Source of the DNA: Muribaculaceae bacterium
Lineage (GTDB): Bacteria; Bacteroidota; Bacteroidia; Bacteroidales; Muribaculaceae
NCBI GenBank assembly: GCA_017436845.1
Contig: JAFSCJ010000003.1
Coordinates: 124,001-188,000 of the forward strand
DNA: 64,000 nt
Reading direction: 5' to 3'
Part shown: positions 3 to 42,400 of the stretch, in pieces
Position numbering within the stretch: the first letter of the stretch is position 1
Layout: every line of letters begins with the position of its first letter
The notes under the pieces: generated by a model
What the model saw: only the letters and a program-made list of their open reading frames with translations
Databases searched by the model: none
What the model was told of the DNA's origin: nothing
Position numbers and translations under genes: made by a program

Positions 3-791
3 AGTCCAGTAGGTTCTGCTGCCCCCAAAGTATTATTGACTCAATATAGCACAGATATAAGCACAATTTTGGGTAAATATCAAAAGTCTGTAAGCCTTAT
101 ATGTGCAACCTCTAATTATCTAGATAAATCTGGTAATGAGTTATGCAATCGTTCTCCTTATTACTTCCTGATATTAGGCAAAGCTAACCATGTGATTTCA
201 GTTAGAAATGGCATCTCAACATTACTTCAAGATAGAGGTCATTTTATAGATAATATAGAAAGTGGTATTGATTATGGTTCTCAGTCATATTCATTTGGCA
301 TGTCTAATCGTTGCAACCAATTGTTTAATGAACCTACATTTGTTGATTATGAAGAACCTGATGTAGAATATGGAGACACTTGTACAATTAAATTGAAAGT
401 GGATTTGACTAAATATCGTTGGCTTTTAGAAAACGAATCTATATTTAGAAATTCATTCTCTATTACTCCAACTTACGGTTCTAAAGTTAATGTTGGCAAT
501 ATATCTTATGATATTAACACTAAGAAAAATAACCAATTAGAAAGAGAAGCCATAGCCAATGTAGAATTAAAAGTATTCAACATGGCAACTGATAGTGAGG
601 TTCTAGTATGGAAACTTAATTTGCCTGATACAAATTACACTCTTTTCTATGAATTCTTTGACGGTGCAATCAATGAAAATGATGTATCAAAATCATATTC
701 TGTAAATGATTTTGTAAAAGGAATGTTCTATGGTGGAGTGCTTAATACTAACCCTTCTGAAAATTATATACTTGTTTCTAAAAATTACTAA
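3..791 (+). CDS. C-terminal part of an unrecognised protein, first visible gene of the motor operon
   Basis: The frame is open to the left edge of the window, so the true start lies outside; the in-frame TTG at 36 is not a convincing start. About 260 residues are visible. I recognise no family. The stretch after the edge reads SPVGSAAPKVLL and is followed by mixed alpha/beta sequence (a hydrophobic strand YYFLILGKANHV about 55 residues in), which could be the end of a larger domain such as a von Willebrand A-like fold; that is a guess. No membrane segment is visible. It lies 3 bp before the next gene and shares the AT-rich composition of the six genes after it, so it is very likely the same operon, which therefore extends leftward beyond the window. 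Confidence 0.75.
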   Translation, partial: SPVGSAAPKVLLTQYSTDISTILGKYQKSVSLICATSNYLDKSGNELCNRSPYYFLILGKANHVISVRNGISTLLQDRGHFIDNIESGIDYGSQSYSFGMSNRCNQLFNEPTFVDYEEPDVEYGDTCTIKLKVDLTKYRWLLENESIFRNSFSITPTYGSKVNVGNISYDINTKKNNQLEREAIANVELKVFNMATDSEVLVWKLNLPDTNYTLFYEFFDGAINENDVSKSYSVNDFVKGMFYGGVLNTNPSENYILVSKNY

Positions 792-794
792 GAT

Positions 795-1238
795 ATGAAG
801 ACGCTAAAAATTTACGAATGGATAGCAGGAAATATGTCGGATTTTGCTAGACCATTCCAAAATAATGAGACTCTTGCAATGCAAGCGAAAAACTTTTGGA
901 GAAGTCTTGAAAATTTCTCGATTGTTAGTGTTTTTGTTTTTATTATCGTAGCAGCTGTTATTGCAGTGTTATATTACAAACCATTTAATAACTCACCGGG
1001 AAGACATTATCACCCCAAGTATTGGTTCTTATTTTGGGCTATATCTATAATAGTGACATTTATCATTACTTTAGGTCTTGAATACGCTTTCTGTAAGCCT
1101 GTGTTAAGTGGAGCATTTCTTTTAGAAACAAAAATTGCTTTAGGCAATGCAATTTATACTGCACTGCTTTATTTAGTGATATCTATTATTTGGTGTAATT
1201 TTTTACCTACTAACGCTTATAGAATCTTCAAAAAATAA
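795..1238 (+). CDS. small three-pass membrane protein of the motor operon
   Basis: This 147-aa protein has no recognised family. Three hydrophobic segments are clear at about residues 41-61, 76-98 and 116-136; a soluble N-terminal stretch of about 40 residues precedes them, and a short basic tail (RIFKK) ends the protein. The gene sits 3 bp after the preceding gene and 2 bp before the tubulin-like gene, so it is almost certainly co-translated with them. Inference: it may anchor the cytoplasmic tubulin-like or actin-like proteins to the inner membrane, or act as an extra subunit of the MotA/MotB-like channel encoded downstream. No catalytic motif is visible. Confidence 0.8.
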   Translation: MKTLKIYEWIAGNMSDFARPFQNNETLAMQAKNFWRSLENFSIVSVFVFIIVAAVIAVLYYKPFNNSPGRHYHPKYWFLFWAISIIVTFIITLGLEYAFCKPVLSGAFLLETKIALGNAIYTALLYLVISIIWCNFLPTNAYRIFKK

Positions 1239-1240
1239 TT

Positions 1241-2644
1241 ATGAAAAAAGTTTTTGTTTTTTGTATAGGAGGAACTGGCATTAGAGTAATGAAAAGCATT
1301 ACTATGCTAATGGCTGGTGGTATGGATACCAATGGATATATGGTTGTCCCTATTATCCTTGACCCTCATTTGGATTTGGAAGAAAAGAAAAATCTTCATT
1401 CTTTAATAGATAGTTACAAAACCGTATATAAAAACTCTGTAAATAATGGTTCGTCAACTCTGAACCATTTAGATGGCTTTTTTAATTCTGAAATTCGTAC
1501 GATTTCTGAATTAAATAATACTACAAATGATACTCAGCAAGTTGCTGGTAGTAGCGAGAAATTCAGTCAGTATATAAACCTGTCAAATATTGGTGCTAAT
1601 GATATTAATAATCACCTAGTTTCTACGCTCTTTTCAACTAAAAACTTGAACAATCCACTATCTGTGGGCTTCAAAGGCAATCCTAATATGGGTACTGTTG
1701 TTTTAGGAGATATGATTGAGGGAGCAGATTGGTTTAAGTCATTTAAGCAACACTGCGAACAAGGAGATAGAGTTTTTATAATTAGTTCAATCTTTGGTGG
1801 AACTGGAGCATCAGGTTATCCTCTCCTTGAAAAGAAGATTAAACTTGCTCAGAATGAGCCAGCGGTAAAAAGTGCTCTTATGGGAGCTGTTACCGTTCTT
1901 CCTTATTACGGTCTTAAAGATCCTGCTACCACAGGTAGTGATATTGATTCGGCTAATTTCTACACTAAAACTAAAGCAGCTTTAGCTTATTATCAAGGAA
2001 CTGTTAAATCGGACTATCTATATTACATCGGAGAAAAACGCTTAATGCAAGTGTATGAAAACGATGAACAGAAACAAGATGATAAAGCAAACTTTATTGA
2101 ACTTGTTGCTGCGTCTGCTCTTTTTGATTTCTTAAAAAGAGAAAAACCCGACAAGCAACAATTTCTCACTAGAGCGATTGAAGATGATAAGGAATCTATG
2201 GATTTAGTCTCTTTAGGAAATGGCTATAGGGATATCATCAAAAGTGTTGCCGACTTTATGTTACTTCGCACATTAGTGACAACTCTCCCTAGTGAGTCTT
2301 ATTTCCCTCTTAAAAAAACATATGGCTTTAATGAGTCTTTCTATTCAAAAGACGAGGCGTTTCAATCACTTGTGCGTTTCTCTGAGACCTATTTTAAGTG
2401 GTACACAGAATTAGCCAATAATAAACGAGCATTTGCACCTTTGCATTATGATAATCCTAGACAAATGGAAGGCTTTGTTAAAGGCATTGGATTAGATGCT
2501 TCAGACGATTCATATTATTTGCTTAAAATGATACAAGCAAGTAATAATAAGACAATTAAGAAAGAGCATAGCAATAAGTTTAGATTCTTCTTGCAGTTTG
2601 CTCATGAAGCAATCAATTATTATACAAGCAAATTAAACAAATAA
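1241..2644 (+). CDS. tubulin/FtsZ-like GTPase (Tubulin_2-like family)
   Basis: This 467-aa protein starts with a hydrophobic strand and a glycine loop, GGTGIR at residues 10-15. At residues 185-193 it carries FGGTGASGY, which matches the tubulin signature loop (GGGTGSG in tubulin, GGTGTG in FtsZ) that binds nucleotide phosphates. The segment VVPIILDPHLD (about 35-45) fits the second strand of a Rossmann-type fold. The protein is longer than FtsZ, and its helical C-terminal half (from about 260) is unlike the FtsZ tail. Known: large bacterial tubulin-like proteins of the Pfam Tubulin_2 type share these two loops and lie in operons of unknown function. Inference: it binds GTP and may polymerise or switch to control the membrane complex encoded downstream. 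It is unlikely to be the cell-division FtsZ, which has a different sequence and lies in the dcw cluster. Confidence 0.75.
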   Translation: MKKVFVFCIGGTGIRVMKSITMLMAGGMDTNGYMVVPIILDPHLDLEEKKNLHSLIDSYKTVYKNSVNNGSSTLNHLDGFFNSEIRTISELNNTTNDTQQVAGSSEKFSQYINLSNIGANDINNHLVSTLFSTKNLNNPLSVGFKGNPNMGTVVLGDMIEGADWFKSFKQHCEQGDRVFIISSIFGGTGASGYPLLEKKIKLAQNEPAVKSALMGAVTVLPYYGLKDPATTGSDIDSANFYTKTKAALAYYQGTVKSDYLYYIGEKRLMQVYENDEQKQDDKANFIELVAASALFDFLKREKPDKQQFLTRAIEDDKESMDLVSLGNGYRDIIKSVADFMLLRTLVTTLPSESYFPLKKTYGFNESFYSKDEAFQSLVRFSETYFKWYTELANNKRAFAPLHYDNPRQMEGFVKGIGLDASDDSYYLLKMIQASNNKTIKKEHSNKFRFFLQFAHEAINYYTSKLNK

Positions 2645-2648
2645 CGAT

Positions 2649-5600
2649 ATGGCACGATTAGACCTAAATATAGTTGACCGAGGCATACAAGGCACTCATT
2701 GGGTTGCAGAAGATGTTGGCTTAACTGCAGAACATCTTGATAAAGTATTGGAGATGAAGACAGATAATAGTGGTGCTCTTAATTCACTCCCAACTCCATT
2801 TGCGCGTTTCTTTGTTGCAAGAGAAGCATTCAGACGAGCAACAGAAGAACATTTAGATACTAGAAACGAAAGAGAAGCTGGATTTGCTTATCGACAACTC
2901 GTTTCAGATATTCTTGATGTTTTTGAGTTATTGTTTAATATCAAATACCACACTAACAATACTTGGAAAAACGGAGAACAAATTGAACTTCGTGAGTGGA
3001 AGTGTAAGGAAAATTTAGAATATCTAAAGAAACAAATGCCTGTGCTATATAATTCTTTGGATAACTATTATACTACTGACATCAACCAAGATAGTCTATA
3101 TTTCCTTGTTTACACAGAAGAAGGTAAAGATATTTTATTAGCTTGTAGTTCTCCGATTACAGGTTTTGTAACTCCCCCTGATTTAGATAAAGCTATTGTA
3201 AAGAAAAATGGCTCTAATGAAACAGTGTGTTCAGGTAGTCAATACAATTCTTTATATATACATCGTAAGTCAGGTGGCTTTTACTTCCGTGATATCAAAA
3301 TGTTTGAAGAAAGAGACCAAGATTTCAAGAACTATATGTTTAATGAACTCTTTGGCTCTGATAATGTCAGCGAGTCTTTTAGGGAATTAAAAGAATACAT
3401 TCGTAGTTTTAAGAATGACAAAGATATTCGTAACGACTATAAGATAAAACTTACTCCTATTAAGACAGACCAAAACACAGACCTTATAATTAACCAATTA
3501 GCTATTCAGTCTTGTGATGAAATAGATATAAATAGCTTCTTTAATAATTCTATTATTAAATTGCCTTATCGTATTTCTAGAGACAGATTTAAGGCTGTAA
3601 ATTATAAGAATGCGGACGCAAAGAGGGATTATGATTTCCTTCTTCCTTTTAAGCCTGAGGTATTAAATCTCTTCGATGGTAATGAAATAGATTCTTATAT
3701 CAATATTAATAGAAACGATATCACCGTTTTTCTTCGTTACAACGGCAAAGAGTATAAAAAAGACTATTCAAAAACCCCAAGTAATGGAGCTGGAAAAATT
3801 TATGAATTAGCTCCGGCTAATATAAATTTTGATTTAGGTATCTTCCCGAATATTTTATCTCATCGCGATGAAGAAAACAATTATTTTAAGATTTTTGTTG
3901 CTGGAGCAGATGAAGACCCGGAAGCACCTAACTTTAGCATTGATAATATAAGCCTTTCATTTTACAAGTATAAAGGAACAGACATCTCTATTATTCGAGA
4001 ACTAGATCCTTCTAGTGCTGAATTTGGAGTCCTTCCTGCTGTCGTTCGTTCTAAACAAGTTAAGAATGGAGTAGAATGTGGTACTAAGTTCTACGAACTT
4101 TTCAATAGCTCTTTTGATGTTATTGAAGTTAGTTTGTATGGTCAGCATTCAGGCTTTGTAATGCCTATTTGGGAAAGGAGTCAAGAAACGAATGAACAGT
4201 TTAGATATGCGATTGATTTAGGCACATCTAATACTTTCATTTCTCGTTGTAAAATTGGTGAAAATAACAAACCAGAATTGTTCAATATGCAACGCCCAAT
4301 GGTAAGTTATCTTCATGAAATACCTGAAGACGCACAACTTTCTTTGTCTAAGTGTATTGAAGACTCTATTTTTGATAGAGCAAAAAATAAAATCAAAACA
4401 GAATTTGTTCCTGCCATTATTGACGGTAATGACTACAAATTCCCTATTAGAACAGCACTTTGTGGAATAAAAAATAAATCAAATGCTCCTAAACTCTTTG
4501 ATAACCACAATATTGCATTCTTTTACGAAAAGTTAATGTCTAATGATGACCAAAATATCCATACAGATATTAAATGGGATAAGAATGATGCAATGTTACG
4601 AGTATTTATCAGAGAACTTTTGCTTATAATCAAATGCGATATCCTTCAACGAAACGGAGACTTAGATAGAACCTCTTTGGTCTGGTTTAAGCCTTTGAGT
4701 TTTATGGGTAATACAAGAGCCATGTATCTTGATATTTGGGAAAAAGAACCTAAAAATATTCTTTCGTTGAATCAGGATAGAATAGAATGTTTCTCTGAAT
4801 CAGAAGCTCCATATTATTACTTTAAGAAAATGGATTATATTAAAGACTCTGATGCAGCTGCCGTTATAGACATTGGTGGTGGTTCTACAGACTTTGTCTA
4901 TTTCCAAGACAATCGCCCTATAATGGCTAATTCTATTCATTTCGGTTGCGATGTTCTTTGGGAAAATGGACTTATTGAGTTTGAAAATGTTCGCAATAAT
5001 GGTATTTTTAGAAAGTATGAAAAAACCATTAGATTTACAAAGAACGGATTACAAGACCTAAATGATTGCTTTATCAATGTTGATAATGCTACAACTAAAG
5101 ATATTATCAATTTCTGGTTAAGCAACTCCGATTCTTGCGACATTAAGAAAAATCTAAGTGCAGATTTCAAACCTGTATTTATTTACCATTTAACTTCTAT
5201 TCTGTTCTATATGGCTAATATGTTCAAAGAAAATGAATATACTGCTCCTAGAACAGTAGTGTTTAGTGGTAACGGTAGTAAGTATATTGATAGCTTCATT
5301 TGCTCTGATAAGCGTATTCTTAAAAAGATTATTGATATGGTCTTTAATCGAGTTTTTGGTACTGAAAACAATATTCATGTTGTATTGCCAAGTGAACGAA
5401 AAGAATCGACATGTTACGGTGGATTATATAGAGACCCTAATGCAGATGATGTACCTGAAAAGGTTTACCAAGGCGATAACTCTATAAATTATGATACAGT
5501 TGGCGATATCAATAAAAACTTTGACGCTTTGAAATCAAAACTCGTATCTAAATACAATGAATTAAGTGCATTGTATAAGGATATTCTTGACTTGTTGAAG

Positions 5601-5798
5601 CGTGAACATATTATTGACAACACCGAAAATACTTCTATATATGTAGAAAAATCAAAAGAAGATATGGGTGTTGCACTTTCAACATACTACAAGTCTCAGG
5701 TTAAAGAAAAATATCAAGATGAAGTATTATTGTATGATTCTGTATTTTTCTTACCTATTATAAACCGTGTATTTGAAATGACAAATTTGAATCTATGA
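2649..5798 (+). CDS. large protein with actin/Hsp70-like ATPase C-terminal half
   Basis: This is a 1049-aa protein. The first ~515 residues are unrecognised. From about residue 520 an actin/Hsp70-type ATPase fold is evident: phosphate-1 loop IDLGTSNTF (acidic residue D523), phosphate-2 loop VIDIGGGSTDF (D741) and adenosine motif VVFSGNGSKY (about 871-880). These three appear in the order and spacing expected for the ASKHA superfamily. A helical segment ends the protein (about 940-1049). The nearest known arrangement is SrfB, a large Hsp70-like protein of unknown role, but I cannot show direct homology. The gene starts 4 bp after the tubulin-like gene, and its stop overlaps the start of the MotA-like gene (ATGA at 5795). 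Inference: it is a cytoplasmic ATP-dependent switch, chaperone or filament that works with the tubulin-like protein and the channel. Confidence 0.8.
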   Translation: MARLDLNIVDRGIQGTHWVAEDVGLTAEHLDKVLEMKTDNSGALNSLPTPFARFFVAREAFRRATEEHLDTRNEREAGFAYRQLVSDILDVFELLFNIKYHTNNTWKNGEQIELREWKCKENLEYLKKQMPVLYNSLDNYYTTDINQDSLYFLVYTEEGKDILLACSSPITGFVTPPDLDKAIVKKNGSNETVCSGSQYNSLYIHRKSGGFYFRDIKMFEERDQDFKNYMFNELFGSDNVSESFRELKEYIRSFKNDKDIRNDYKIKLTPIKTDQNTDLIINQLAIQSCDEIDINSFFNNSIIKLPYRISRDRFKAVNYKNADAKRDYDFLLPFKPEVLNLFDGNEIDSYININRNDITVFLRYNGKEYKKDYSKTPSNGAGKIYELAPANINFDLGIFPNILSHRDEENNYFKIFVAGADEDPEAPNFSIDNISLSFYKYKGTDISIIRELDPSSAEFGVLPAVVRSKQVKNGVECGTKFYELFNSSFDVIEVSLYGQHSGFVMPIWERSQETNEQFRYAIDLGTSNTFISRCKIGENNKPELFNMQRPMVSYLHEIPEDAQLSLSKCIEDSIFDRAKNKIKTEFVPAIIDGNDYKFPIRTALCGIKNKSNAPKLFDNHNIAFFYEKLMSNDDQNIHTDIKWDKNDAMLRVFIRELLLIIKCDILQRNGDLDRTSLVWFKPLSFMGNTRAMYLDIWEKEPKNILSLNQDRIECFSESEAPYYYFKKMDYIKDSDAAAVIDIGGGSTDFVYFQDNRPIMANSIHFGCDVLWENGLIEFENVRNNGIFRKYEKTIRFTKNGLQDLNDCFINVDNATTKDIINFWLSNSDSCDIKKNLSADFKPVFIYHLTSILFYMANMFKENEYTAPRTVVFSGNGSKYIDSFICSDKRILKKIIDMVFNRVFGTENNIHVVLPSERKESTCYGGLYRDPNADDVPEKVYQGDNSINYDTVGDINKNFDALKSKLVSKYNELSALYKDILDLLKREHIIDNTENTSIYVEKSKEDMGVALSTYYKSQVKEKYQDEVLLYDSVFFLPIINRVFEMTNLNL

Positions 5799-7423
5799 GT
5801 TTATTTGTAACTTTAACAATTTCACTACTTGTTGCTTGTTTTTTCTCTGTATTGCAAATTCGGTACTTTAAAGATACAGCTAAATACAGGTCTTTATTTC
5901 AAAACTTTTTTAAGAAAGTAAAGCCATACGCCATTGCTAAACAAGTCAATTGGGGTATGGAACAGGATTTGTCTGATACTAATGAAGTAATTAGATTAGA
6001 GCTTGTTGGAACTGAAAATTCAGATCTTAATAATCTTATCTCTGAAATAAATAATTACATAGAAAAGACTAAAGGAACAACTGATTTTTCAGTAATACAA
6101 AGCAAGGTTGAACGAAAACTGAATATGAGATATGACCAATCTACTGCAACATTGGCATTTCCTACATATTTAGGTTTGATGGGTACATTTGCTGGTGTAT
6201 TTATGGGTATTTTGGCATTTGTTGTTGGCTTCGACGGTGCAGGAAATATTACAGATAGCTCTATCCAAGACCTTCTAATTGGTGTTCTTGTTTCAATGTT
6301 TACTAGTTTGCTAGGTCTTATATTGACTACTATTAACAATGCAAATGCTGGTGCAGCGAGGAAACAAATAGAAGAAGATAAAAACGAATTCTATGATTTC
6401 ATTCAAACGGAATTAATGCCAACGATTGATGTTAGTATGGTCGTAGCAATTACTAAACTACATGAAACTGTTGACAAGTTTGAACCGGCTTTTGACCGTG
6501 TAATCAATAGATTCCAAACGACTTTTGATAATTGTACTCGTGCTTTTGGAGATAACTTTGAAAGGAATGTTGTTGCAGTAGCTGGAGCTGTTGATGTTAT
6601 GGGGCAAAATATGGATAAAATTAACCAAAATATCAGACTCCAAGAAAATCTTTTGGCAACATTAAAGAGTGGCGATTTAATTAAGGGTATGGATAAATAC
6701 ATAGAGGCAGCTAATCATTTTGTTGGCATAACTCAATCTTTGAACAAATTTGAAGAGGCTAGACGAATGATGCTTGCTGCTACACAGGAAACTATTTCTA
6801 TGCAGAAACAGTTTGCTGATTCTTTGACCGTACCAAGAGAAATTGCTGTTAAGATTAATCAAGTTCTTGAAAGAATAAAAACTTTCGAAGAAAACATCAA
6901 TCATCTTGGAGAGGATTTAAGCAGACGCGAAATTCTAGGCAACGATGTTGTTAATGCTATACAGTCTCAAGTTAATGCCATTGCAAAGAAAGGCAAGATT
7001 GCAGATAAATACTTAGGCGTTGCAGATGGTAAACTTGAAGACTTGTTTACAAGACAAACAGAAGTAATTGACTCTATGAGTAATCGATATGCCTCTGCCC
7101 TTGACAAGCACCTAAGAGAGTTTGAAAATATTCTTGAGGAAAATCAACGAGAAATCATTTCTCGCCGAGATAGATTCTTGACTGCTATTGAAGACAAACT
7201 TTCAATAGAAGAAGTACATAAAGATTTCTCAAACCTCAAGAAGTTAAATGAGATAGAAAGAAAACTTTCAGAGCTAGCTTCTGTTTCTGTAAGTGCAGAT
7301 AAGCTTCATAGTGATGTAAAAGCCCTACAAACAGAACTTGCTAAAATTAATGAAAGTCTCAATGCTCTCAATGAAAAAGAATCTGCAAAGAGCGGTTGGA
7401 CTAATATTTTTGGTCGTAAGTAG
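5795..7423 (+). CDS. MotA/TolQ/ExbB-like (ZorA-like) channel subunit with long cytoplasmic tail
   Basis: This 542-aa membrane protein has hydrophobic segments at about residues 3-22, 122-146 and 159-181. The central pair (YLGLMGTFAGVFMGILAF, then LLIGVLVSMFTSLLGLIL) has the small-residue pattern of the MotA/TolQ/ExbB proton-channel family. After the last segment comes a cytoplasmic tail of about 360 residues, predicted helical and coiled-coil, rich in Gln, Glu and Lys, ending SGWTNIFGRK. MotA and ExbB lack such a tail; ZorA of Zorya anti-phage systems has one, which forms a long helical rod. Its start overlaps the preceding stop, and the MotB-like partner follows 2 bp later. Inference: with the next gene product it forms an ion-driven rotary complex in the inner membrane that passes a signal down the tail to the cytoplasm. 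Confidence 0.85.
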   Translation: MSLFVTLTISLLVACFFSVLQIRYFKDTAKYRSLFQNFFKKVKPYAIAKQVNWGMEQDLSDTNEVIRLELVGTENSDLNNLISEINNYIEKTKGTTDFSVIQSKVERKLNMRYDQSTATLAFPTYLGLMGTFAGVFMGILAFVVGFDGAGNITDSSIQDLLIGVLVSMFTSLLGLILTTINNANAGAARKQIEEDKNEFYDFIQTELMPTIDVSMVVAITKLHETVDKFEPAFDRVINRFQTTFDNCTRAFGDNFERNVVAVAGAVDVMGQNMDKINQNIRLQENLLATLKSGDLIKGMDKYIEAANHFVGITQSLNKFEEARRMMLAATQETISMQKQFADSLTVPREIAVKINQVLERIKTFEENINHLGEDLSRREILGNDVVNAIQSQVNAIAKKGKIADKYLGVADGKLEDLFTRQTEVIDSMSNRYASALDKHLREFENILEENQREIISRRDRFLTAIEDKLSIEEVHKDFSNLKKLNEIERKLSELASVSVSADKLHSDVKALQTELAKINESLNALNEKESAKSGWTNIFGRK

Positions 7424-7425
7424 AT

Positions 7426-8232
7426 ATGGATGGTAAAAGTAATGGTTCTTTTTGGCCAAGCTATGTTGATATTATGACAACATTGTTTGCAATTATGCTT
7501 GTTTTGTTCGCTGTTTCATTTAGCCGTTTTAAGATAAAGGAGCAAGAGCAAAAAGAAACTTTGGATATGCTTCAATCTCTTGTTGATGAATACGAGAATA
7601 TTATTACTGTATATTCAACCGTAGGATCTATTGACTCTACTAAATATTTTGGATATGATGAAAAATACCTAAAGCATTTATTTACAATAGATGTTGAATA
7701 TCAAATGAAGGGTTATAGCATTGTTAATCAATTAAAGTTAGACAAGACGGACAAGATTCTAGCTGACAAGAAAAGAGAAGATATTATTGCAGCTGGAAAA
7801 CTTATTAAAGAAACCATTCTTAAACTCGAAAACAATAGTTCAATTAACAACAACATTAAATTCCTTGTCGTAATTGAAGGGCAATCGTCTAAAGTTGGTT
7901 TTGAGGGTGGCGATTGGATGAACAATTATACATTGTCATATTTGAGAGCTAGATATATAAATGAATTTTGGAAACAAAATGGTATTGACCTAGAGAAAAT
8001 TCCAAGATGTGAACTTATAATATCGGGCAGTGGAGAAGGTGGTGTGCCTCGTATTATTCCAAATGAAGCGGAACTCCATTCAAAATTTGGCAATTCTGCT
8101 GAATATATGAGAGAATGGAGTAAAATAGAAGAAAAAAATCAAAGATTTCTTATTCACATCGTTCCTGTAATTGGTAATATCGATGTAACGAAAGAAAAGA
8201 TTGAGGACATTAAATCGCACACAAGTAAATAA
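7426..8232 (+). CDS. MotB/ZorB-like subunit, one TM helix plus OmpA-like peptidoglycan-binding domain
   Basis: This is a 268-aa protein. A short cytoplasmic N-terminus leads into one membrane helix (about residues 14-32). The segment FWPSYVDIMTTLFAIMLVLF has the MotB plug pattern, with D15 at the place of the proton-carrying aspartate. The periplasmic part ends in an OmpA/MotB-like domain: FLVVIEGQSS (about 146-155), then LSYLRARYINEF, then IISGSGEGGVPR, then NQRFLIHIVP near the C-terminus, matching the family order of strand, RA helix, GxG turn and final strand. Such domains bind peptidoglycan and anchor the motor to the wall. It begins 2 bp after the MotA-like gene, and its stop overlaps the next start (TAATG at 8230-8234). 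Confidence 0.87.
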   Translation: MDGKSNGSFWPSYVDIMTTLFAIMLVLFAVSFSRFKIKEQEQKETLDMLQSLVDEYENIITVYSTVGSIDSTKYFGYDEKYLKHLFTIDVEYQMKGYSIVNQLKLDKTDKILADKKREDIIAAGKLIKETILKLENNSSINNNIKFLVVIEGQSSKVGFEGGDWMNNYTLSYLRARYINEFWKQNGIDLEKIPRCELIISGSGEGGVPRIIPNEAELHSKFGNSAEYMREWSKIEEKNQRFLIHIVPVIGNIDVTKEKIEDIKSHTSK

Positions 8233-9197
8233 TGTTTGATGATTCTAGTTTTGAGATGAATAATGTGAGTAAAGATTACAACTTGTTTTCTGATGATTAT
8301 TCTTATCAAGAATTTCGTCAGTCAATAATTGACGCACCTACTTTATTCTTTGATAAAAGCAAACTGCCATTTGATAATATCAAACTGAAGAATCCTGAAT
8401 TAGATATAGATATTCGCTTAGAATTTCAATTCCTTCTGCATTCACTTTTGCCTGAAACAACTTATACAGACAAGCATTTGTTTTACTTATATAAAGCCGG
8501 TATATGCAGGGCTTATGGCTATTATATACCTTCAAGTAAGTACTTTGTTGTCTGTGAAGGGAGTTTAGTTTCTTCTTCAGTAGATAGTAGATATGAAGAG
8601 ACTAGCTCAGGAAAAGCTAGAGTTCGTTTTATTCGTGAGGCTTGTGAAGAATATCCTAATTACTATCGCGTAAAAAAAGACGCTAAATGTATTTCAGCGA
8701 CCGCTGCAGCATCTTATGTATTAGGTCGAACTGCTAGATATACAGATTGGAAGGATAAGAATGGAGAGTTATTATCTAATTTTTACCCAGAACATTTTGT
8801 AAAAAAATCCTCAATAGATAAGAGTTCTAATCTCTCTAACACTATAAGTTCTTCATTTAATGAAGAGGTTTCTAATATACGCAGATTTTATTTAAAAATG
8901 GGATTGGATTCAGAATTGCGTTGCTATGCAATCGGTGAGTACAATCCAATTTCAAACCAGTTCATTCTTAAAGCCAAAAGTATTCTTTCTTATGATTCAA
9001 AAAATATCTCTAGACAACTTTTCTTAAGTTTATATACAGAGAAGAACCAGAACAAGAAAACTTGCACATTAAAAAGAGACGTTCCATGTGCATCAATTGA
9101 AGAAGCTACAACTCTTGTTCTTGGATATGTCGCTTCTGATTATCAAAATTTATGGCGAGATATAGATGATAAATCATTTAAGGAACTCTTTACATAA
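8232..9197 (+). CDS. protein with two DUF4357-like modules, last gene of the motor operon
   Basis: This 321-aa soluble protein has an acidic N-terminus and no signal peptide. Residues about 93-181 fit DUF4357: a strand pair (YYIPSSKYFVVCEGS), a helix, then the hallmark ISATAAASYVLGR followed by WKDKNGELL. A second, weaker copy spans about 229-316 (YNPISNQFILKAKS, then ASIEEATTLVLGYV, then LWRDIDDKSF). Known: DUF4357 occurs at the ends of GIY-YIG nucleases and in restriction-associated proteins; its biochemical role is not settled as far as I know. Here no nuclease domain accompanies it. Inference: it is a sensor or adaptor that recognises nucleic acid or a modified ligand and signals to the motor complex. 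Its start overlaps the stop of the MotB-like gene, so its output is tied to that of the complex. Confidence 0.8.
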   Translation: MFDDSSFEMNNVSKDYNLFSDDYSYQEFRQSIIDAPTLFFDKSKLPFDNIKLKNPELDIDIRLEFQFLLHSLLPETTYTDKHLFYLYKAGICRAYGYYIPSSKYFVVCEGSLVSSSVDSRYEETSSGKARVRFIREACEEYPNYYRVKKDAKCISATAAASYVLGRTARYTDWKDKNGELLSNFYPEHFVKKSSIDKSSNLSNTISSSFNEEVSNIRRFYLKMGLDSELRCYAIGEYNPISNQFILKAKSILSYDSKNISRQLFLSLYTEKNQNKKTCTLKRDVPCASIEEATTLVLGYVASDYQNLWRDIDDKSFKELFT

Positions 9198-9505
9198 CAA
9201 ATACATAAAATTTTGAGCTGTTCTTACTTCAATTAGTTTGTAATGAGTTGTATAATAGAACTGATTTCAATTACTTAGAGAAAAATTTTGGTCTGCTTTG
9301 GGAGTTATGGGATTGGGGAATTTATAGTAATTTGTTGCTTAAATCGGCGGGGGAAAGTTTAAGAAATTGGAATTGAACCCGAAAATATTGTAATAAATTT
9401 GGAATTGGGGAGGGGAGATGTAGGGCTTTTTAATGCATTTTAATTGGTTTTTTGAAGGGGAATTTATCGGTTTTAGAAATAAATGTGTAACTTAGTTGCA
9501 TATTT
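9198..9505. other. noncoding gap after the motor operon, G-rich imperfect repeats
   Basis: About 300 bases without a credible gene. The middle (about 9290-9420) has runs of G on the plus strand and two related segments, AAATTGGAATTG near 9364 and AATTTGGAATTGGGG near 9399. No clear hairpin terminator follows the operon. Near 9488 TAACTTAG resembles a -7 box (one mismatch to TAnnTTTG) and may drive the Fic gene. The odd composition fits a scar or junction at the edge of an inserted island, but no attachment-site duplication can be shown here. Confidence 0.4.
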
Positions 9506-10390
9506 ATGGAACAGAATAGCCAACAACAAAAAATATCCATTCGCTTCTTTAACGATAAGGAAGTGCGTGCTACATGGGACGATGATGGCAACCGTTGGTT
9601 GTTCTCAGTCGTTGATGTTATTGCTGTCCTTACCGATAGTAAAAATCCACGCAACTATTGGAAAGTTATGAAACATCGCTTGGCTAAAAGTGGGAATGAG
9701 TTGGTTACTCGCTGTAACCAACTGAAACTCGTTGCGTCTGACGGTAAGCGATATTTAACTGATTGTTTGCCACAAAATGAGATGATTAGTCTTGTGGAAG
9801 CAGTGCCAAGCCAACATGCGATTGCTTTTGCAAAATGGCTAATTACCGGTGAAGACCAAATAGACAGCAAGAGCCGAGATAAAGCATATCAACTTTGGGA
9901 TAGCTCCTTGTTGCAAACTATTGAGGTGGGTACTGCACGGGGGTTGCAACAAATTCACGCCTATCTTTTTGGTGGACTATATGATTTTGCCGGACAAATA
10001 CGCCAAAAGAATATTTCTAAAGGTGGATTTCAATTTGCAGTATCTCAGTTTCTTGGACAAACACTATCTCAGATTGAGAGAATGCCCGAAACAACTATTG
10101 ATGAAATTGTAGATAAATATGTCGAAATGAATATTGCCCACCCATTTATGGAAGGGAACGGCAGAAGTACTCGAATTTGGTTGGATTTAATGCTTAAACG
10201 ATCATTAAAAAGTTGTGTCGATTGGAGTAAAATTGACAAGACCGCCTATATGGAAGCAATGCGTTTAAGTGTGATTAATCCAACAAGAATACGCGAGTTA
10301 ATAGCTAACGCTTTAACCGATAAAATCAATGATCGAGAAATGTTTATGAAGGGCATTGATTATTCATATTACTATGAACAAGATAATTAA
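9506..10390 (+). CDS. Fic-domain AMP-transferase with N-terminal Bro-N-like domain
   Basis: This is a 294-aa protein. Residues about 10-115 resemble the Bro-N/antirepressor domain (FSVVDVIAVLTDSKNPRNYW, then LVASDGKRYLTDC, then AFAKWLI), usually DNA-binding. Residues about 130-275 are a Fic domain with the active-site motif HPFMEGNGRSTR at 212-223 (catalytic H212) and the upstream flap LFGGLYDFAGQIR (154-166). The C-terminus carries SYYYEQ at 287-292, which fits the inhibitory helix [S/T]xxxE[G/N] of class III Fic proteins, with S287 and E291 present and Gln at the last place. Fic proteins transfer AMP (sometimes other nucleotides) onto Tyr, Thr or Ser of a target. Inference: a self-inhibited enzyme, toxin or regulator. 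It stands alone between the motor operon and the glycosidase operon. Confidence 0.85.
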   Translation: MEQNSQQQKISIRFFNDKEVRATWDDDGNRWLFSVVDVIAVLTDSKNPRNYWKVMKHRLAKSGNELVTRCNQLKLVASDGKRYLTDCLPQNEMISLVEAVPSQHAIAFAKWLITGEDQIDSKSRDKAYQLWDSSLLQTIEVGTARGLQQIHAYLFGGLYDFAGQIRQKNISKGGFQFAVSQFLGQTLSQIERMPETTIDEIVDKYVEMNIAHPFMEGNGRSTRIWLDLMLKRSLKSCVDWSKIDKTAYMEAMRLSVINPTRIRELIANALTDKINDREMFMKGIDYSYYYEQDN

Positions 10391-10441
10391 TTCTCATTTA
10401 ATTGTTTGTGATTTTAAGAAAATAATAAAACCGATATAATC

Positions 10442-13141
10442 ATGAAAAAGAATTTATTTCAAATGGGTGGTGTCGCTGTGGTTGCGCTGTTGAGCGTGGC
10501 TTGTGGCAGTGAGCAACAACTATCGCCCGATGTTATCTCATCATGTAATGAATATACTGTTTATAATAATCGCGTTGAGCAAGGAGAGTTTACGGCTACG
10601 GCTGTGAGCCCAACGGAGATTGTTACGAATTACAAGAGTCTTGTAACAAGTGGTGCTTCTTCGTTGGTAAATTTCCGTTTCTCTATCAATAGCCGTGATA
10701 ATGAGTTGCCTCAAGGACAGAGCCACACTGCGATCATAGGCGATGCTGCGTCGGACAATCATGTGTTTACCTTTGGAGAGGTTACAGAGAAGATTGACTC
10801 GGTAGCAACAGGAACAGAATTGGCAAAGGACACTCAATGGACCATTCGTGTGGATATGCGTCCTATGTTGGCATCGTTTAAAGAGAATGGGTGGTTTGTT
10901 ACAGCAACAGGCGATTCAATCTATGCCGATGATTTCAAAGGGGTGTGGATTGCCGGTAGTGTGGACCCATTGAGTTGGGATTTTGAAAATCTATATGGTA
11001 AGCATGATCGTAAGTTGGTGGATAGAGGTGATGGAATATTTGAGGTTACATTGACAGTAAACCCCACTACCGATCGTCCTGCCGATGTTACCGAATGGAA
11101 GATTGATTCTATTGACTCTGCAATGCCTCAATACAATTCAGGGCAGGTGCTTGTCGATGCTATCTATAACATGTCATTGGAGTGTATAAAGTCAAATATA
11201 CGTCCTGACAACACCTATCGTGCCGGAGCGGCATGGGATGGCGTGTGGACTCGTGATGTGAGCTACTCAATATATCTTGCTCTTGCTTATCTTGACCCGC
11301 AGAATGCAATTAATTCATTGCGAGCAAAGGTGAAAAACGGACGCATTATTCAAGATACCGGAACAGGTGGTGCATGGCCGGTGTCAAGCGACCGCATTGT
11401 GTGGGCTGTTGCTGCATGGGAAATTTATAAAACAACCGGAGATAAAGAATGGCTCGCCGAGGCTTATGATATAATTACAGCAAGTTTGAAAGATGATATG
11501 CAAGTAGTGTGGGATAACGAACATCGTTTGATGCATGGTGAACAAAGCTATCTTGACTGGCGTGAACAGACTTATCCTCGTTGGATGCAACCCAAAGATA
11601 TCTATGAGTCAATGTGTCTTGGTACAAACGTAGTATTTGCTCGGGCATTTGAGATTGTTGATGAAATGGCCGATGAACTTGGAGTCGAAGAAGACGGTAT
11701 GTTTGACGGCATGGACGAAACAATCAAGAACTCAATTAACAAAAACTTGTGGCTCCCTGAACAGGGATATTATAGTGGATATCTCTATGGTGGGGTATAT
11801 CCCATTCAGTCTCGAGCTACCGATGCTTTAGGCCAGGCATTGAGTGTAATTTTTGATGTAGCAACTGATGAAATGGCTCGTTCAGTAATTAGTCGCACTC
11901 CGGTAGTGCCATTTGGAACATCTTCGGTATATCCTCAAATGCCTGATATCAAGCCTTATCACAATGATGCAGTGTGGCCGTTTGTTCAGTCATATTGGAA
12001 TTTAGCTGCTCGCGAGGTGAAAAATATTGATGCGTTTAATGCAGGATTTGGCGCGTTGTGTCGTGCAGCTGCGTTGTTTGGTACACAAAAAGAATTATTT
12101 GTTGCATCAAATGGCGATTATCGAGGCACTGCTGTAAACTCTGACAAGATGTTGTGGAGTTCGACAGGATATGTCGCTATGATAATGCGTGTATTTGCCG
12201 GAATGGAATTTAAAACAGATGGTATTGAATTTGAACCTTTTGTGCCTCAATATCTAATAGGAGATAAACAGATACAGAACTTCAAATATAGAGATGCTAA
12301 TCTTGATATTATTGTGAAAGGAACCGGTGATGAAATCGCACAATTCTCAATAGATGGAAATGTGAGAGATGAACATTTCTTCCCCGCAACAATATCGGGC
12401 AAACACACAATAGAGATTGTAATGGCTGATAATGAATTTGAGAAGCAACCTCGCAACGCAGCTCAACAGGCATGGATGCCATCAACACCTATTGTAGATT
12501 GGAAGTCTCAAGATTTGGCTGTTGTAAAGAACTATAAACAGGGGTTGAATTATGATGTTTATGTCAATGGAGTATATCAAGAGGCCGTTGCTTCAAATGA
12601 TATTGCGCTTGAAACAATGGATTGTTTCACAATGATAGATATTGTGCCGGTTGCTGCTGATAAATTAGCCGGATTTACTATGCAGCCACTTGAATATATT
12701 CCGGAAGATGCGATGACTATTATCCAAGCTGAGAAAATTGCATCGCCGGGAACGAAATTTATTAAAGATATTAAAAAGGCTCGTCGTTTTGTGGAAACAA
12801 CAATATCTAAAAATACCAAATTGACATTTAACGTAACTGTTGCCGATGGTGGAACATATTTTGTCGATGTGCGTTATGCCAACGGATCGGGTCCAATCAA
12901 TACAGAAAATAAATGTGCGATACGCACTCTTGTTGCAAATGGAGAGCGGGCAGGAGCATTGGTTATGCCTCAACGTGGAATTGATGAATGGCTGTCAACC
13001 GGATTTAGCAATCGAGTTGCAGTAAATCTCAATGCCGGAGAAAATAAGTTGTCAATAGAGTATTTAACTCCCGAAAATATCAATATGAATGGTGATGTTA
13101 ATACAGCATTAATTGATTATATCAGAATAATAAGAAAATAA
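10442..13141 (+). CDS. lipoprotein six-hairpin glycosidase (glycogen-debranching-like) with C-terminal carbohydrate-binding module
   Basis: This 899-aa protein has a lipoprotein signal (lipobox LSVAC, C21). A beta-rich N-terminal region holds a starch-binding-like segment (VWIAGSVDPLSWDFENLYG, about 163-181). The middle (about 235-610) is an alpha/alpha toroid of the six-hairpin glycosidase class, with GAAWDGVWTRDVSYS, DTGTGGAWPVSSDR and PYHNDAVWPF; acidic residues in the first and last are candidate catalytic groups. The last ~150 residues (from IIQAEKIASPGTK) look like a CBM6/35-type beta-sandwich. Known: such proteins are often labelled glycogen debranching proteins in Bacteroidales. Inference: surface or periplasmic attack on alpha-glucan side chains, in step with the GH13 enzyme 4 bp downstream. 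The exact CAZy family is not assigned. Confidence 0.75.
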   Translation: MKKNLFQMGGVAVVALLSVACGSEQQLSPDVISSCNEYTVYNNRVEQGEFTATAVSPTEIVTNYKSLVTSGASSLVNFRFSINSRDNELPQGQSHTAIIGDAASDNHVFTFGEVTEKIDSVATGTELAKDTQWTIRVDMRPMLASFKENGWFVTATGDSIYADDFKGVWIAGSVDPLSWDFENLYGKHDRKLVDRGDGIFEVTLTVNPTTDRPADVTEWKIDSIDSAMPQYNSGQVLVDAIYNMSLECIKSNIRPDNTYRAGAAWDGVWTRDVSYSIYLALAYLDPQNAINSLRAKVKNGRIIQDTGTGGAWPVSSDRIVWAVAAWEIYKTTGDKEWLAEAYDIITASLKDDMQVVWDNEHRLMHGEQSYLDWREQTYPRWMQPKDIYESMCLGTNVVFARAFEIVDEMADELGVEEDGMFDGMDETIKNSINKNLWLPEQGYYSGYLYGGVYPIQSRATDALGQALSVIFDVATDEMARSVISRTPVVPFGTSSVYPQMPDIKPYHNDAVWPFVQSYWNLAAREVKNIDAFNAGFGALCRAAALFGTQKELFVASNGDYRGTAVNSDKMLWSSTGYVAMIMRVFAGMEFKTDGIEFEPFVPQYLIGDKQIQNFKYRDANLDIIVKGTGDEIAQFSIDGNVRDEHFFPATISGKHTIEIVMADNEFEKQPRNAAQQAWMPSTPIVDWKSQDLAVVKNYKQGLNYDVYVNGVYQEAVASNDIALETMDCFTMIDIVPVAADKLAGFTMQPLEYIPEDAMTIIQAEKIASPGTKFIKDIKKARRFVETTISKNTKLTFNVTVADGGTYFVDVRYANGSGPINTENKCAIRTLVANGERAGALVMPQRGIDEWLSTGFSNRVAVNLNAGENKLSIEYLTPENINMNGDVNTALIDYIRIIRK

Positions 13142-36427: not shown

Positions 36428-39400
36428 ATGGGAAATAAAAGACGATTATTGTGTTTTTTTACGCTTCTATTATCGTTGATTCTATTTGAAAAAGTAGAAG
36501 CGTATAATTTTATTTCTGATGGGTTATATTATAATATAACATCATCAGCTTCTAAAACGGTTGGGGTTACGTATAAAGACACATCCTATAATTCTTATTC
36601 AGGAGATGTAATTGTGCCTGAAACCATAACATATAATGGTATGGTATATACCGTCGAATCAATTGAAGCAAAGGCATTTTATGATTGTTCAGAATTGAAA
36701 AGCATTAAGTTACCGGAAACAATAACAAGAATTAACGATAATGCATTTTTTGAATGTGTTGGATTGGATTCTATTGTAATTCCCAAGAATGTTTCATATC
36801 TCGGGACAAGTGCACTCCATTTTAAATATGGAGCGGTAAAAGTTATAATGAAAAGTATAACCCCTCCAACGATAAGTAGTGCAGATGCCGGCTCATTCAA
36901 TGGCGCGCATCAAACAATATATGTTCCTAAAGGCACAGGCCATACTTATAAGAATACTACAGGATGGGATAAATTATTTATAATAGATGGAGATTATCCT
37001 ACTGTTGTATCAATCCCAAATTTACAAGCCGGTCAATTAGAAACGGAAATATTAAAACAAGTTGATTATCTTGATTTAGTTAATGAATTGATTGTTGGGG
37101 GGGATTTAAATGAAGCTGATTTAGCAGTAATAAAAAATAGGATGCCGAATCTAAATCATATAGATTTAGGTAAGGTTAATATTTCATCTCTACCAGAAGC
37201 ATATTTTAAAGGGAGGTGGTTTATGCGAAAAATAGTTCTTCCCAATAAATTAACCAAACTCCCGACTAGCTTATTGAATAATTGTTATGTGTTGAATTCA
37301 ATCGCAATGGCAGAGGGTGTTATAGAAATAGGGGATTCCGCATTTTATAATTGTTACCAACTACCAGAAGTTAAAATTCCTACCTCTGTAGAAAATATCG
37401 GAAAATATGCTTTTTATAATTGTAATAAGATTGCCGATATTACATTGTCAGATAATGTGAAAAACATTGATGTTGGTGCTTTTCAATGGGTGTCTCGGTT
37501 TGTGACATCAATAACAATCCCTTCATCAATATCAGAAATCAGCTCATTATGTTTTGCGAATTGTACAGCGTTAAAGGAATTGATATTGTCTGCTAATATA
37601 GCAAAAATACAATCAAAAGCGTTTTCCGAATGTTCTAATCTTGGAGCTATAACTTGTTTTGCTGTAAATCCACCAATTGTTGAGTCTGATGTATTTGCTG
37701 ATATATATAGTAATGCAATATTATATGTTCCTGCATCTTCTATGACTTTATATGCAGACGCTGATGTTTGGAAAAATTTTAATATTCAACCTATCACAGA
37801 TGATGTAAAATCCATAAATGTTAGTTTCCCATTAGACAAGGCAGAAACGTATAAAAATATGACACTTGAAATTGTAAATACAACAAGTGGCATTTCTCAG
37901 AAAATCACAACATCGGGATTACAATCATATACGTTTAGCGGATTAACAAAAAATTGTAATTATAATATATTATTATCAACACCCCAAGGTGTTATAATTG
38001 GGGAAATAAAAAACGTATTTTTGGGTACAGAGGATATCCAAGTCACATTTGCTGATTTATTGCCATTGTATGATGTAGAATTATTTATAAATACACCAAA
38101 TGGTACAGATGTAAGAACAGAGAGTGTAGTATCTTGGTATGATAGTAATGATGTGTTTATTTCAAAAAATACAACGATTAAGTCAGTATTGTCAGGAACT
38201 GAACTAAAATATAATATTACATTAAAGGACACTCTTGGACTAATTTATGAATCACCAATTAATCAAAAATATATTGTAAATGATAGCGTAAATGAGATAA
38301 AACATACACTTGTACCATATAAAAAGGTTATCCTTTCAGGAATGGTTAATGAAACAATAGGTGGTGTCGTTTCTGACGCTACTATTGTTGCAAATCAATG
38401 CTTAAACGGGTCGAATTCAAAAATAATAACAACTAAATCCGATGAAAAAGGAACGTTTGAGCTGATCCTTAGCAATGTCCCTACAACGATTGTAATATCG
38501 GCACCGGAATATATTAGTGAAAAAATAGAGATAGCTGAATTTACAGATACAATAAATCTCGGAAGAATTATATTAAAACCTATATCCGGAGCAGTAGTCT
38601 CGTTAAGTCAACAATATATTTCAAGTGTAGATGCAGAAAATCAAGAAAAGACAAATAATTGGACTCCAGATATTAAAAATATTGCATATACAGTATATAA
38701 TGTTACTCAAAATAAAGAGATTAAAGAGATTGTTACAGAATATTCGCGAATAGTTTTGCTTGAAGATGTTGCAGTTGGAGATTCATTGACAATTACTGTG
38801 ATGAGTAAAGTCAATGAATTTAAACCTGTAAAAAGTGGGTGTCTAATTAGTGAAGATAATGAGGGCGCTGTAACGCTATGTATTACGGAATTGGGAAGAT
38901 TAAAAGCGTCTTATAATGACGCAGATAATGAGACGATAACAGGTGTTTTATATGATTGTAATGGAGAATTATATAAAACACAAGATTATTCAGATTGTAT
39001 ATTGTCAGTAAATAATCTTGCCGATGGTAATTATTCTTTGGTTACAATGGCCAAAAGTAAATTTTTTAATTCGATATTGAAATTATCAGAATTAAAAGCA
39101 TCTGCACTTATCGCGGGAGAAGATTATTTGATAAATGATGTTATAGTAAGTAGTGGAGTAATAACAGTAGTAAGTAATGATGTAGTTCCTCCATTGGATG
39201 AAAGTAAATTATATTATACTGGAGACGGAACATCGTTTACTGTAAATAAACCAACAATAGTAGCAGGTAATTATTTGACATTTAAGGCATCTCTTGACTT
39301 TAAGGAAGAATATGCTGATAAAATTTCTAACATTAGTTTGGTTATCGATTTGCCTGGAAGTTGTTCATTTGCGAGCAATTCTGTGATGGTAGGGAAAAAT

Positions 39401-42400
39401 ATTGCCCCTTATCAAATAAACGGGAATACAATAGAAATTCCTATAACAGACTGCACTGAAATAGTGAAATTCTGTGCTGTCCCATCTGAAAGTGGCGAAT
39501 TTGCACCTAATGCATTTGCGGTCTTTAATTATGATGGAGAAACGATAAAACAACCAATTGGTTCGGCTCTGTTTAATGTTAAGGATGTAAGTATAATAGT
39601 CCCAGAGATAACAAGAGAAACATCGGTTTCTGTTAGTGGTACAGCAGTTGGACATTCTATCGTTGAAATTTATGATAATGACGTGCTTGTAGGAAATACT
39701 ACGGCTCTTGCTACGGGTGATTGGTATTCTAAGATTGATTTGATTAACGCATATAATCTTTCTACCCACTTAATATATGCTAAAATAAAGACGCCACAGA
39801 ATGTATTATTGCAAACAGAGTCAAAACAATGTCAATATGACTTTAACGCAATAAAAGCTGAAAAAGTAACAATGTTGAATACAATTCACATTGCGGGGAC
39901 AAGTGATGAGTACGAAATCCAAACTGTATTTGATTTGATAAATCCCGAAAATGATGTAAAATATTATCAATATTGGCCTCAATATCCGGAATTTACATTT
40001 TTGATTGATTTTACAGAAAATGATGTCACAAAAGTTTCTGATGTAAAATTGCATGTATTCTGTGATGATAATTCTTGTTCGATACTGACTCCAACTTTTG
40101 ATGATAAATTAGGGAAGTGGGTTGCGTCAGCAAAATATAATCAGCAAAATCTGCCTGTAAATGTTGCTGTGGATTTTGTCGCAAAAACAAAATATTATAT
40201 TGATGGTGAATATTTAGATGAAATTTGTAGAGATAATGATAAATTTTATTCTGATTACAAATTTGATATAGCAAGAACTGATAGTATTTGTGAGTTAATA
40301 GATGAAGAATTTGCAAAGGATAAATTGGACTATGAGAAAATAGAAACATTGATAAACTCAATTAATAATAGCGAATTTATTGTCAATAGATCAGATGTGG
40401 ATTCTTTATTAAGTATAAGTGAAGATGTGTTCGATGCAGAATTAGATAAATTGTTGTTGGAAATGGATAGTCTATGTGTAGACAATTTATTTTCAGTAAT
40501 TGATTCTGTAGTTTGTAATTATAATCAATATGGCATTTTTGATTGTGGTAAGAAAGATGGGCTGCAATATATAAAAAAGGTTCTTCCTTGTGCTGATACT
40601 TCTGTAGATTCGCTTATTAGAGAAGGTTATACAAAAATAAATGTTACTACAGATGCATTAATTTATGAATTAATTTCAGAAACTAAATATGATTATGTTG
40701 ATATAACCCATAATAAGAGAGTAATTATAACCGCAATAGCAGACAGCTCTCCCACAATAATGCTATTTGATACTAGTGCTAGCGATGATAATAAAAATGA
40801 AGTTATAAAAGAATATATTCAAGAAAAATTAGAAGAATTATTGACAGATGATGATGTTTTAGATCAGTTCTATAATAAGGTAAATCCTTTAAGAAAAGAG
40901 AAGTTAGAAAGATTAGATAAAGTACAAGAGTCTATTGAAAAAAGGATAGAAGCTTTGAAAGATAAAGTAAAGAACACAACAGGAGATGATGCTATAAATT
41001 ACAATAAAAAGATAAAAGATGCGAATAAATCTTTACAAAAGGGAGAGAAATTACGAGGCAAAATAAATAGAGGCCATGGTGTAATTCGCAAATTTACTCA
41101 GATAAAAGGTCTCCTTGAAAGATGGGTTGGGTATTATAATGACTTTATCGATGATGAGGCTGATTTGAGCTTATTGAAAGTTCCAGAATGTGCATATGAC
41201 GTGGTTCCAACTGCAGCATATATGGTTGATGAAAAAATAGAAAACTTAAAGTCAAAATTTAATTCCTTTTATAGAAATAGGTTTATACGTAATGCTGCTT
41301 TTAGTGCCACTGATTTGGTTGATCCATGTATTCCAATGACTGAATATGTATTAGATCAGGCTGCAGATGTAGAATCATTTAGAATTGAACAATTCAAAAA
41401 CGAATTTAACTCTGAGCGAGTGCAAATAATGAGAGATATAGAAGATTTGAAGGAAAAATGTAATGATAAGAAGAACCCGAAACCAAAGGAACAGCTACAG
41501 CCACAAGGCGGAAATAAGGAACCTCAGATTGATCCATCAGGATTTGTATATGAAGGAGTAGAAAGTAATAGATTGGATGGTGTGACTGTTACTTGTTATT
41601 ATAAGGAGATGGTTGAGGATATGTATGGTGATGTACATGAAGAAATTGTTATGTGGAAAGCCGAGGATTATGCTCAAATAAATCCAATTATAACAGGAAA
41701 AGATGGAATGTTCCGTTGGGATGTACCTAAAGGAATGTGGCAAGTTAAGTTTGAAAAGGAGGGATACCAAACAGTTTGTACAGAATGGTTGCCGGTTCCT
41801 CCTCCTCAACTTGAAGTTAATGTAGGGATGGTACAGGTTACACAACCAGAAGTAATTTTAGCTCAGGCTTATGAAGATGGAATTGAAATTGAATTTGATA
41901 AATATATGTTGTCAAATTTATTGAATTTATCGAATATTTCAGTAGTTCAAAATGGTGATACTATTTCAGCAGAAATAATACATTTGAATATTGACGATTC
42001 TTTATCATCAAAGATTAAATATCAATTTGCTGAACCTTTGTTAAGCGGAAGTGATGTGAAACTTGTGGTAAATAGGAATGTGCGCAGTTATGCAAATGTA
42101 AAAATGGGAAAAGACTATACTCAAGAATTTGAGATAGTTGTACGTCCGTCAATCAGTGCTCCAGAAAAAGTCGAGGTTATCTATAACAAGAGTAATGATA
42201 TTGTATTATCGTTGTCTAATTGTATAGGCAAAAAAGTAATAGCATCATTGGTCTCTACAACGATTGCTACAATTACACCGAATGAGGCAGTTGTTGATGA
42301 AAATGGGAAAGTTACGTTTACAATAAATGGAGAACTACCTGGATTAACTATGGCGCAATTTAATGTGGAAGGAGAAAATTTAAGTGCAGAAACAGAGGTT

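Follow-up and report, generated by a model that had tools for sequence, protein, structure and literature searches.

A compact seven-gene operon, which joins a tubulin-like and an actin-like nucleotidase to a Zorya-like membrane motor, is found in a Muribaculaceae bacterium (assembly GCA_017436845.1). It lies at the start of the window analyzed here, a stretch of 64,000 nucleotides covering positions 124001-188000 of contig JAFSCJ010000003.1 (G000:C2). The seven open reading frames (ORFs) are all on the plus strand at window positions 3-9197, and they are separated by gaps of 3, 2, 4, and 2 bp or overlap by 4 bp and 1 bp, as an earlier note made from the sequence alone had described (Table 1). 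The same note had listed gene 1 as an ORF at position 3; the reading frame is present, however it is cut by the window edge, and its start lies outside at G000:C2:123535.

Table 1. Features of the operon and of the gap that follows it (positions in the window)
Feature	Position	Strand	Product or content
Gene 1 (3' part)	3..791	+	Lipoprotein of 418 amino acids (aa) when whole; ExSGSM and LISD motifs; putative vWA fold
Gene 2	795..1238	+	147-aa membrane protein with three passes
Gene 3 (P0003)	1241..2644	+	Predicted tubulin/FtsZ-superfamily GTPase, probably of FtsZl1/Tubulin_2 type
Gene 4 (P0004)	2649..5798	+	1049 aa; predicted actin/Hsp70-superfamily (ASKHA) ATPase domain
Gene 5 (P0005)	5795..7423	+	ZorA/MotA-like motor subunit with helical tail of ~360 aa
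Gene 6 (P0006)	7426..8232	+	ZorB/MotB-like subunit with invariant D15 and periplasmic OmpA-like domain
Gene 7 (P0007)	8232..9197	+	DUF4357 protein in the slot of the exported protease of other clades
Gap	9198..9505	none	Relatives encode a membrane-anchored Endonuclease_NS here

A genome scan for relatives yielded 80 loci, and the order of gene 1, a transmembrane (TM) protein, gene 3, and gene 4 is kept throughout. With this order seen again in about 80 loci, at identities as low as ~30%, the operon is more than a chance arrangement. Outside the clade of the window, gene 4 is followed by a TM/coiled-coil protein termed X, and ZorA-ZorB are then present in about 44 of the 80 loci. The note had proposed a search for co-occurrence of the GGTGASG protein, the ASKHA protein, and the motor pair. 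In a family sample of 297 genomes, gene 3 was found in 81 and this type of ZorB in 12; 12 of the 13 ZorB loci adjoin gene 3/4 or are cut off by a contig end. Across a phylum sample of 325 genomes, four encode this ZorB, and in all of them gene 3 lies at most about 10 kb away on the same contig. Both samples together place 16 of 17 ZorB loci beside the tubulin/actin core, with the window's own locus counted in each. The lone exception (L084, on contig 13 of genome G017, positions 5472-11007) encodes ZorAB without this core; its neighbors are a 780-aa protein that weakly matches PD-(D/E)XK nucleases and an unassigned 281-aa protein, and it is a different Zorya-like arrangement.

Gene 3 contains both loops which had been read as tubulin-like, IGGTG near residue 9 and GGTGASG at residues 186-192, and I9, G10, G11, G13, G186-A190, and G192 are invariant in 25 relatives. 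The Pfam Tubulin match is weak for the window protein itself (E = 0.013). Among its relatives, Tubulin was matched by 25/25 (best 1.5e-6) and Tubulin_2 by 20/25 (best 4.6e-6), and a Gloeothece homologue scores above the Tubulin_2 cut-off. An AlphaFold2 model with a predicted local distance difference test (pLDDT) score of 84 had only FtsZ, tubulin, or CetZ among its top 50 PDB matches, with a best E of 2.3e-4 and low template modeling scores (TM-scores) of 0.25-0.40. On this model the GTPase domain is predicted to be a strongly diverged member of the tubulin/FtsZ superfamily, probably of the FtsZ-like-1 (FtsZl1)/Tubulin_2 kind. A T7-like NxDxxD/E motif after an H7-like helix was not seen in the 25 sequences, therefore classical polymerization-coupled GTP hydrolysis cannot be assumed. 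The C-terminal region of the model is short, mostly helical, and without a long coiled coil, whereas the majority form of FtsZl1 has an extended coiled-coil behind the GTPase domain, although this is not required. Apart from these proteins, a third subtype of tubulin-like protein of ~555 aa (E about 1e-15 to 1e-20) was observed in several genera (G268, G014, G043, G140, G290, and others; locus example L102).

The ATPase domain of the gene 4 product spans about residues 510-930, and the N-terminal part of ~500 aa has no assigned role. D523 and D741, on which the earlier claim of actin/Hsp70 loops was based, belong to the motifs D523-x-G-T-x-N-T and D741-x-G-G-x-x-x-D748, which are invariant in 31 relatives. 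The phosphate-1, phosphate-2, and adenosine motifs of ASKHA proteins are all present in an actin fold. The structural model (pLDDT 85) matches MreB (1.9e-8, with target TM-scores of 0.5-0.6) as well as ParM, actin, and DnaK, and the protein is predicted to be an ATPase of the actin/Hsp70 (ASKHA) superfamily. A relation to SrfB/SrfC was considered and set aside, with no Pfam SrfB match and no help from the literature.

For genes 5 and 6, both motor subunits bear out the earlier description, including the long tail of the MotA-like protein and the OmpA domain of its MotB-like partner, whose D15 is invariant in 28 sequences. The best PDB profile matches of the gene 5 product are Zorya structures (8vvi, 3.5e-8; 8vvn, 3.4e-7; 8qyy, 8e-5), and the gene 6 product is closest to the Zorya chain 8vvn_B (4.3e-12). 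PADLOC reports ZorA2 (9e-8) and ZorB1 (4e-8). The motor shares the proton-channel fold and the invariant Asp with MotAB, TolQR, and ExbBD, however it has no flagellar, Tol, or Ton context and its nearest solved relatives are from Zorya. Folds and linkage agree that a ZorAB-like motor is combined with NTPases of the tubulin and actin superfamilies. In seven Flavobacteriaceae loci (L024, L025, L026, L027, L030, L048, and L049) a ZorA lacking its N-terminal part is preceded by a separate single-TM ORF of 100-145 aa, as if the protein were divided into two genes.

Genes 1 and 2 complete the core. A lipobox was found in relatives of gene 1, and distant cyanobacterial homologues keep the canonical DxSxS. 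Pfam and PDB profile searches gave no vWA match, so the probable vWA-like fold is read from the motifs; the protein is proposed to be an envelope sensor. Gene 2, correctly taken for a three-pass membrane protein, matches a TM protein of ~140 aa that other loci have in this position (profile-profile probability 96%).

Behind ZorB lies an exchangeable cassette. Outside the clade of the window, slot 1 of most motor-bearing loci is occupied by an exported protease, which is either trypsin-like (Pfam Trypsin_2 at about 5e-22 or better) or retropepsin-like (gag-asp; catalytic DTG in 9/9). The second slot often holds an exported nuclease, namely Endonuclease_NS (1e-56), SNase (6e-22), or EEP (3e-12), and in L070 trypsin and Endonuclease_NS are fused in one protein. 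The clade of the window has a DUF4357 protein in slot 1 and Endonuclease_NS with an N-terminal TM segment in slot 2. DUF4357, as claimed for gene 7, occurs in 17/18 of its relatives, and gene 7 has a PADLOC candidate-defense match. Nearly all cassette proteins carry a lipobox, a signal, or an N-terminal TM segment. A cassette protease or nuclease gene was found in 35/42 motor-bearing and 0/22 motor-less loci, a count of pooled families in which trypsin-like proteases and Endonuclease_NS are joined through the L070 fusion and one positive locus (L008) is an upstream match; since the loci are related, a Fisher p-value for this comparison is not a true probability. G545, a motor-less genome outside the 22-locus set, keeps the retropepsin. 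The textbook motif of Endonuclease_NS is DRGH; some copies have SRGH or SHGH instead, which makes their activity uncertain.

The earlier note had placed the two NTPases where Zorya has its effectors. This did not hold: they form a conserved core that occurs with or without the motor, and the exported enzymes behind ZorB are distinct genes. As the window locus itself is without a nuclease, the role of effector may fall to the DUF4357 protein or to the Endonuclease_NS encoded elsewhere in the genome (C16:56667-57284), which is ~40% identical to cassette members and unlinked to the operon. Immediately after the operon, at the site of the nuclease in relatives, a Fic-domain protein with a BRO-N-like N-terminus is encoded (9506-10390, plus strand); it is possibly an independent mobile or toxin-like gene. 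Separately, unrelated exported effectors (loci L024-L030, L049, L053, L068, L070, L076, and L097) were found to have in common basic residues that immediately follow the lipidated Cys (CKRPxR or CSRSG), a feature of 0/88 background lipoproteins. These residues possibly represent a sorting or docking signal.

Occurrence is patchy, with 2/11 sampled members of the genus and 8/325 genomes across the phylum. Metagenome-assembled genomes labeled Roseburia, Erysipelotrichaceae, and Gracilibacteria are possibly mis-binned and do not enter any claim of phylum breadth. Two cyanobacterial plasmids (L094, NZ_CP014003.1; L095, NC_014503.1) encode the vWA-lipoprotein/TM/tubulin/actin-like core without ZorAB. 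The ancestral core is a vWA-like lipoprotein, a 3-TM protein, a tubulin-like protein, and an actin-like ATPase. In a tree of gene 3, a quick tree with several long branches, the motor-bearing state extends across deep Bacteroidota branches, and only three changes of motor state are seen (0/500 shuffles as low). A motor-less Prevotella clade is nested among the motor-bearing branches, and therefore loss of the motor in this clade is the simplest reading.

The two forms also differ in their genomic sites. Flank homologues shared with another locus were found for 8/41 motor-bearing and 24/30 motor-less loci; thus motor-bearing loci are at varied sites and motor-less loci at conserved ones. PADLOC matches flanking the motor-bearing loci comprise GajA of Gabija, AbiEi/AbiEii, type I restriction-modification, a type II restriction endonuclease, and UzuA, whereas the motor-less control loci are flanked by pVip-like and mad3 matches only. 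By inspection of the sequences, the neighborhoods concerned are that of L049 (type I restriction-modification) and probably those of L016 and L014. Most flanks are ordinary chromosomal genes. Within the genus there is no clean empty site, because the operon-flanking genes are on different contigs or missing in relatives. No homologue was found among 50,697 phage records, which rules against a phage origin. Elsewhere in the window, a 2373-aa protein (36428-43549, plus strand) appears to be secreted and rich in repeats.

Parts of this arrangement have been described before. FtsZl1 genes with vWA and OmpA-family neighbors, including members from Bacteroides and cyanobacteria, were reported to encode a diverged GTPase domain in which the T6-H7/T7 elements are not recognizable, and membrane remodeling was proposed (Makarova and Koonin, 2010; PMC2875224). 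The operon is similar in combining a diverged FtsZ/tubulin GTPase with OmpA-family and membrane proteins and a putative vWA protein, in having no recognizable T7-like motif, and in the glycine-rich T4 loop, GGTGxxG being invariant in the gene 3 relatives. However, the 2010 account stresses P-loop GTPases and kinases, neither of which was found in the operon (no P-loop GTPase family was detected among its seven proteins), and it makes no mention of exported protease or nuclease cassettes or of a counterpart to the actin-like partner and ZorA of the operon; MotA and Hsp70 are never named (PMC2875224). Tubulin+vWA and HSP70 themes were later described in GAP1-N2 GTPase-centric conflict systems (Kaur et al., 2020; PMC7159879). 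Points of likeness are the tubulin-domain proteins, paired there with extracellular vWA proteins and in the operon with a putative one, a separate theme that uses HSP70, and the proposed conflict role. Their tubulin theme is confined to Firmicutes and actinobacteria and does not overlap with the HSP70 theme, the systems center on GAP1 and GTPases which were not found in the operon, and MotA is unmentioned (PMC7159879). The earlier statement that no such system had been described therefore stands in part: in the literature on FtsZl1, Tubulin_2, and Zorya, searched without preprints and most subscription papers, none was found that joins tubulin-like, actin-like, and ZorAB proteins, but the FtsZl1/vWA/OmpA and tubulin+vWA/HSP70 themes were already published. 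The operon is probably a member of the FtsZl1 kind that also has a motor and effector module absent from the literature searched.

Judged from composition, linkage, sequence-derived topology, and motif conservation, we lean toward a conflict system of several components that spans and senses the envelope, is coupled to a proton motor, and is most likely directed against phages. This is the best-supported guess, held with slightly more belief than doubt, and it agrees with the envelope-sensing defense that the earlier note had suggested. The predicted topology of the motor-bearing form comprises the lipoprotein outside the inner membrane, the 3-TM protein, ZorAB with its peptidoglycan-type OmpA domain, and the GTPase and ATPase in the cytoplasm. 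The vWA lipoprotein and ZorB would sense a disturbance of the envelope, for example the injection of phage DNA, and ZorAB would couple proton flow to the long cytoplasmic tail of ZorA. On this tail and the 3-TM protein, the GTPase and ATPase may undergo nucleotide-controlled assembly, which would set the threshold of the trigger. Firing would then release or activate the periplasmic or lipoprotein protease and nuclease, and these would degrade the incoming DNA or incapacitate the cell; the DUF4357 protein takes the place of the protease in the clade of the window. Tentatively, this might be a new class of cross-envelope immunity, in which a tubulin-like GTPase and an actin-like ATPase together switch the proton-driven ZorAB from the cytoplasm and so fire an exported protease and nuclease that destroy phage DNA as it enters, a stronger proposal to which we give clearly less credence.

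Several observations weigh against a defensive role. Effectors are absent in 7/42 motor-bearing loci, and in the window's gap no Endonuclease_NS or remnant was found in six frames. Recognizable defense neighbors occur at only a handful of ~40 motor-bearing loci, and the neighbors of the window operon are metabolic genes. The way in which a signal would pass from NTPases in the cytoplasm to enzymes outside it is conjectural. Moreover, the rumen Prevotella clade has the core at conserved positions but neither motor nor effectors, and together with the cyanobacterial plasmids this suggests that the core function is not tied to the motor. The motor-less core, which is common in one Prevotella genus and sits at conserved sites, fits an envelope or membrane remodeling machine, in which a membrane-linked tubulin/actin-like assembly would be combined with a ZorAB that acts on the cell wall with force, like TolQR or MotAB, and exported enzymes would be accessory. 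This is how FtsZl1 neighborhoods containing vWA and OmpA proteins were interpreted in 2010 (PMC2875224), and all proteins of the operon are envelope-linked or NTPases. However, the operon is absent from most relatives and is therefore not essential. The exchangeable nucleases and proteases, the patchy distribution, the varied sites of the motor-bearing form, and some of the defense neighbors fit a conflict role better, which leaves remodeling a rather unlikely alternative.

It is improbable that the operon is strictly a subtype of Zorya in which the two NTPases serve as novel effectors in the cytoplasm. ZorAB is nearest to Zorya structures, with the long cytoplasmic tail of ZorA and the conserved Asp and periplasmic OmpA-like domain of ZorB, and two NTP-binding proteins are encoded beside it; nuclease-type effectors nearby are a further likeness to Zorya. 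However, the scores are far under the curated NCBIfam cut-offs (21.3 against 100 bits for ZorA and 19.4 against 400 bits for ZorB), none of the seven proteins matches ZorC, ZorD, or ZorE, and the operon has four extra core genes. Many genomes have the NTPases but no ZorAB, and the effector folds lie in other genes, whose products are exported and belong to Pfam families other than those of ZorC, ZorD, and ZorE. The operon is thus outside strict Zorya membership. A device for DNA uptake, scavenging, or interbacterial competition, in which the motor and exported enzymes would process extracellular DNA or protein, is less probable still. The exported nucleases and proteases would suit it, as would the hosts, which are Bacteroidota of gut, rumen, and marine origin; however, genes for uptake or secretion were not recognized in the cassettes examined, the protease type differs from clade to clade, and the core exists without exported enzymes.

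The operon is real and conserved as well as unusual, and as a variant it forms a bridge between the FtsZl1 sets and Zorya, both of them known kinds. FtsZl1/Tubulin_2 proteins are found in many phyla, and in the literature searched no function has been tested for them since 2010. That they are linked here with a Zorya-like motor and an actin-like partner, as well as with interchangeable exported enzymes, provides a concrete anti-phage hypothesis for this group. If the anti-phage reading is true, ZorAB motors would include a branch with effectors that act beyond the cytoplasm, and tubulin-like and actin-like NTPases would be working together in one bacterial machine.

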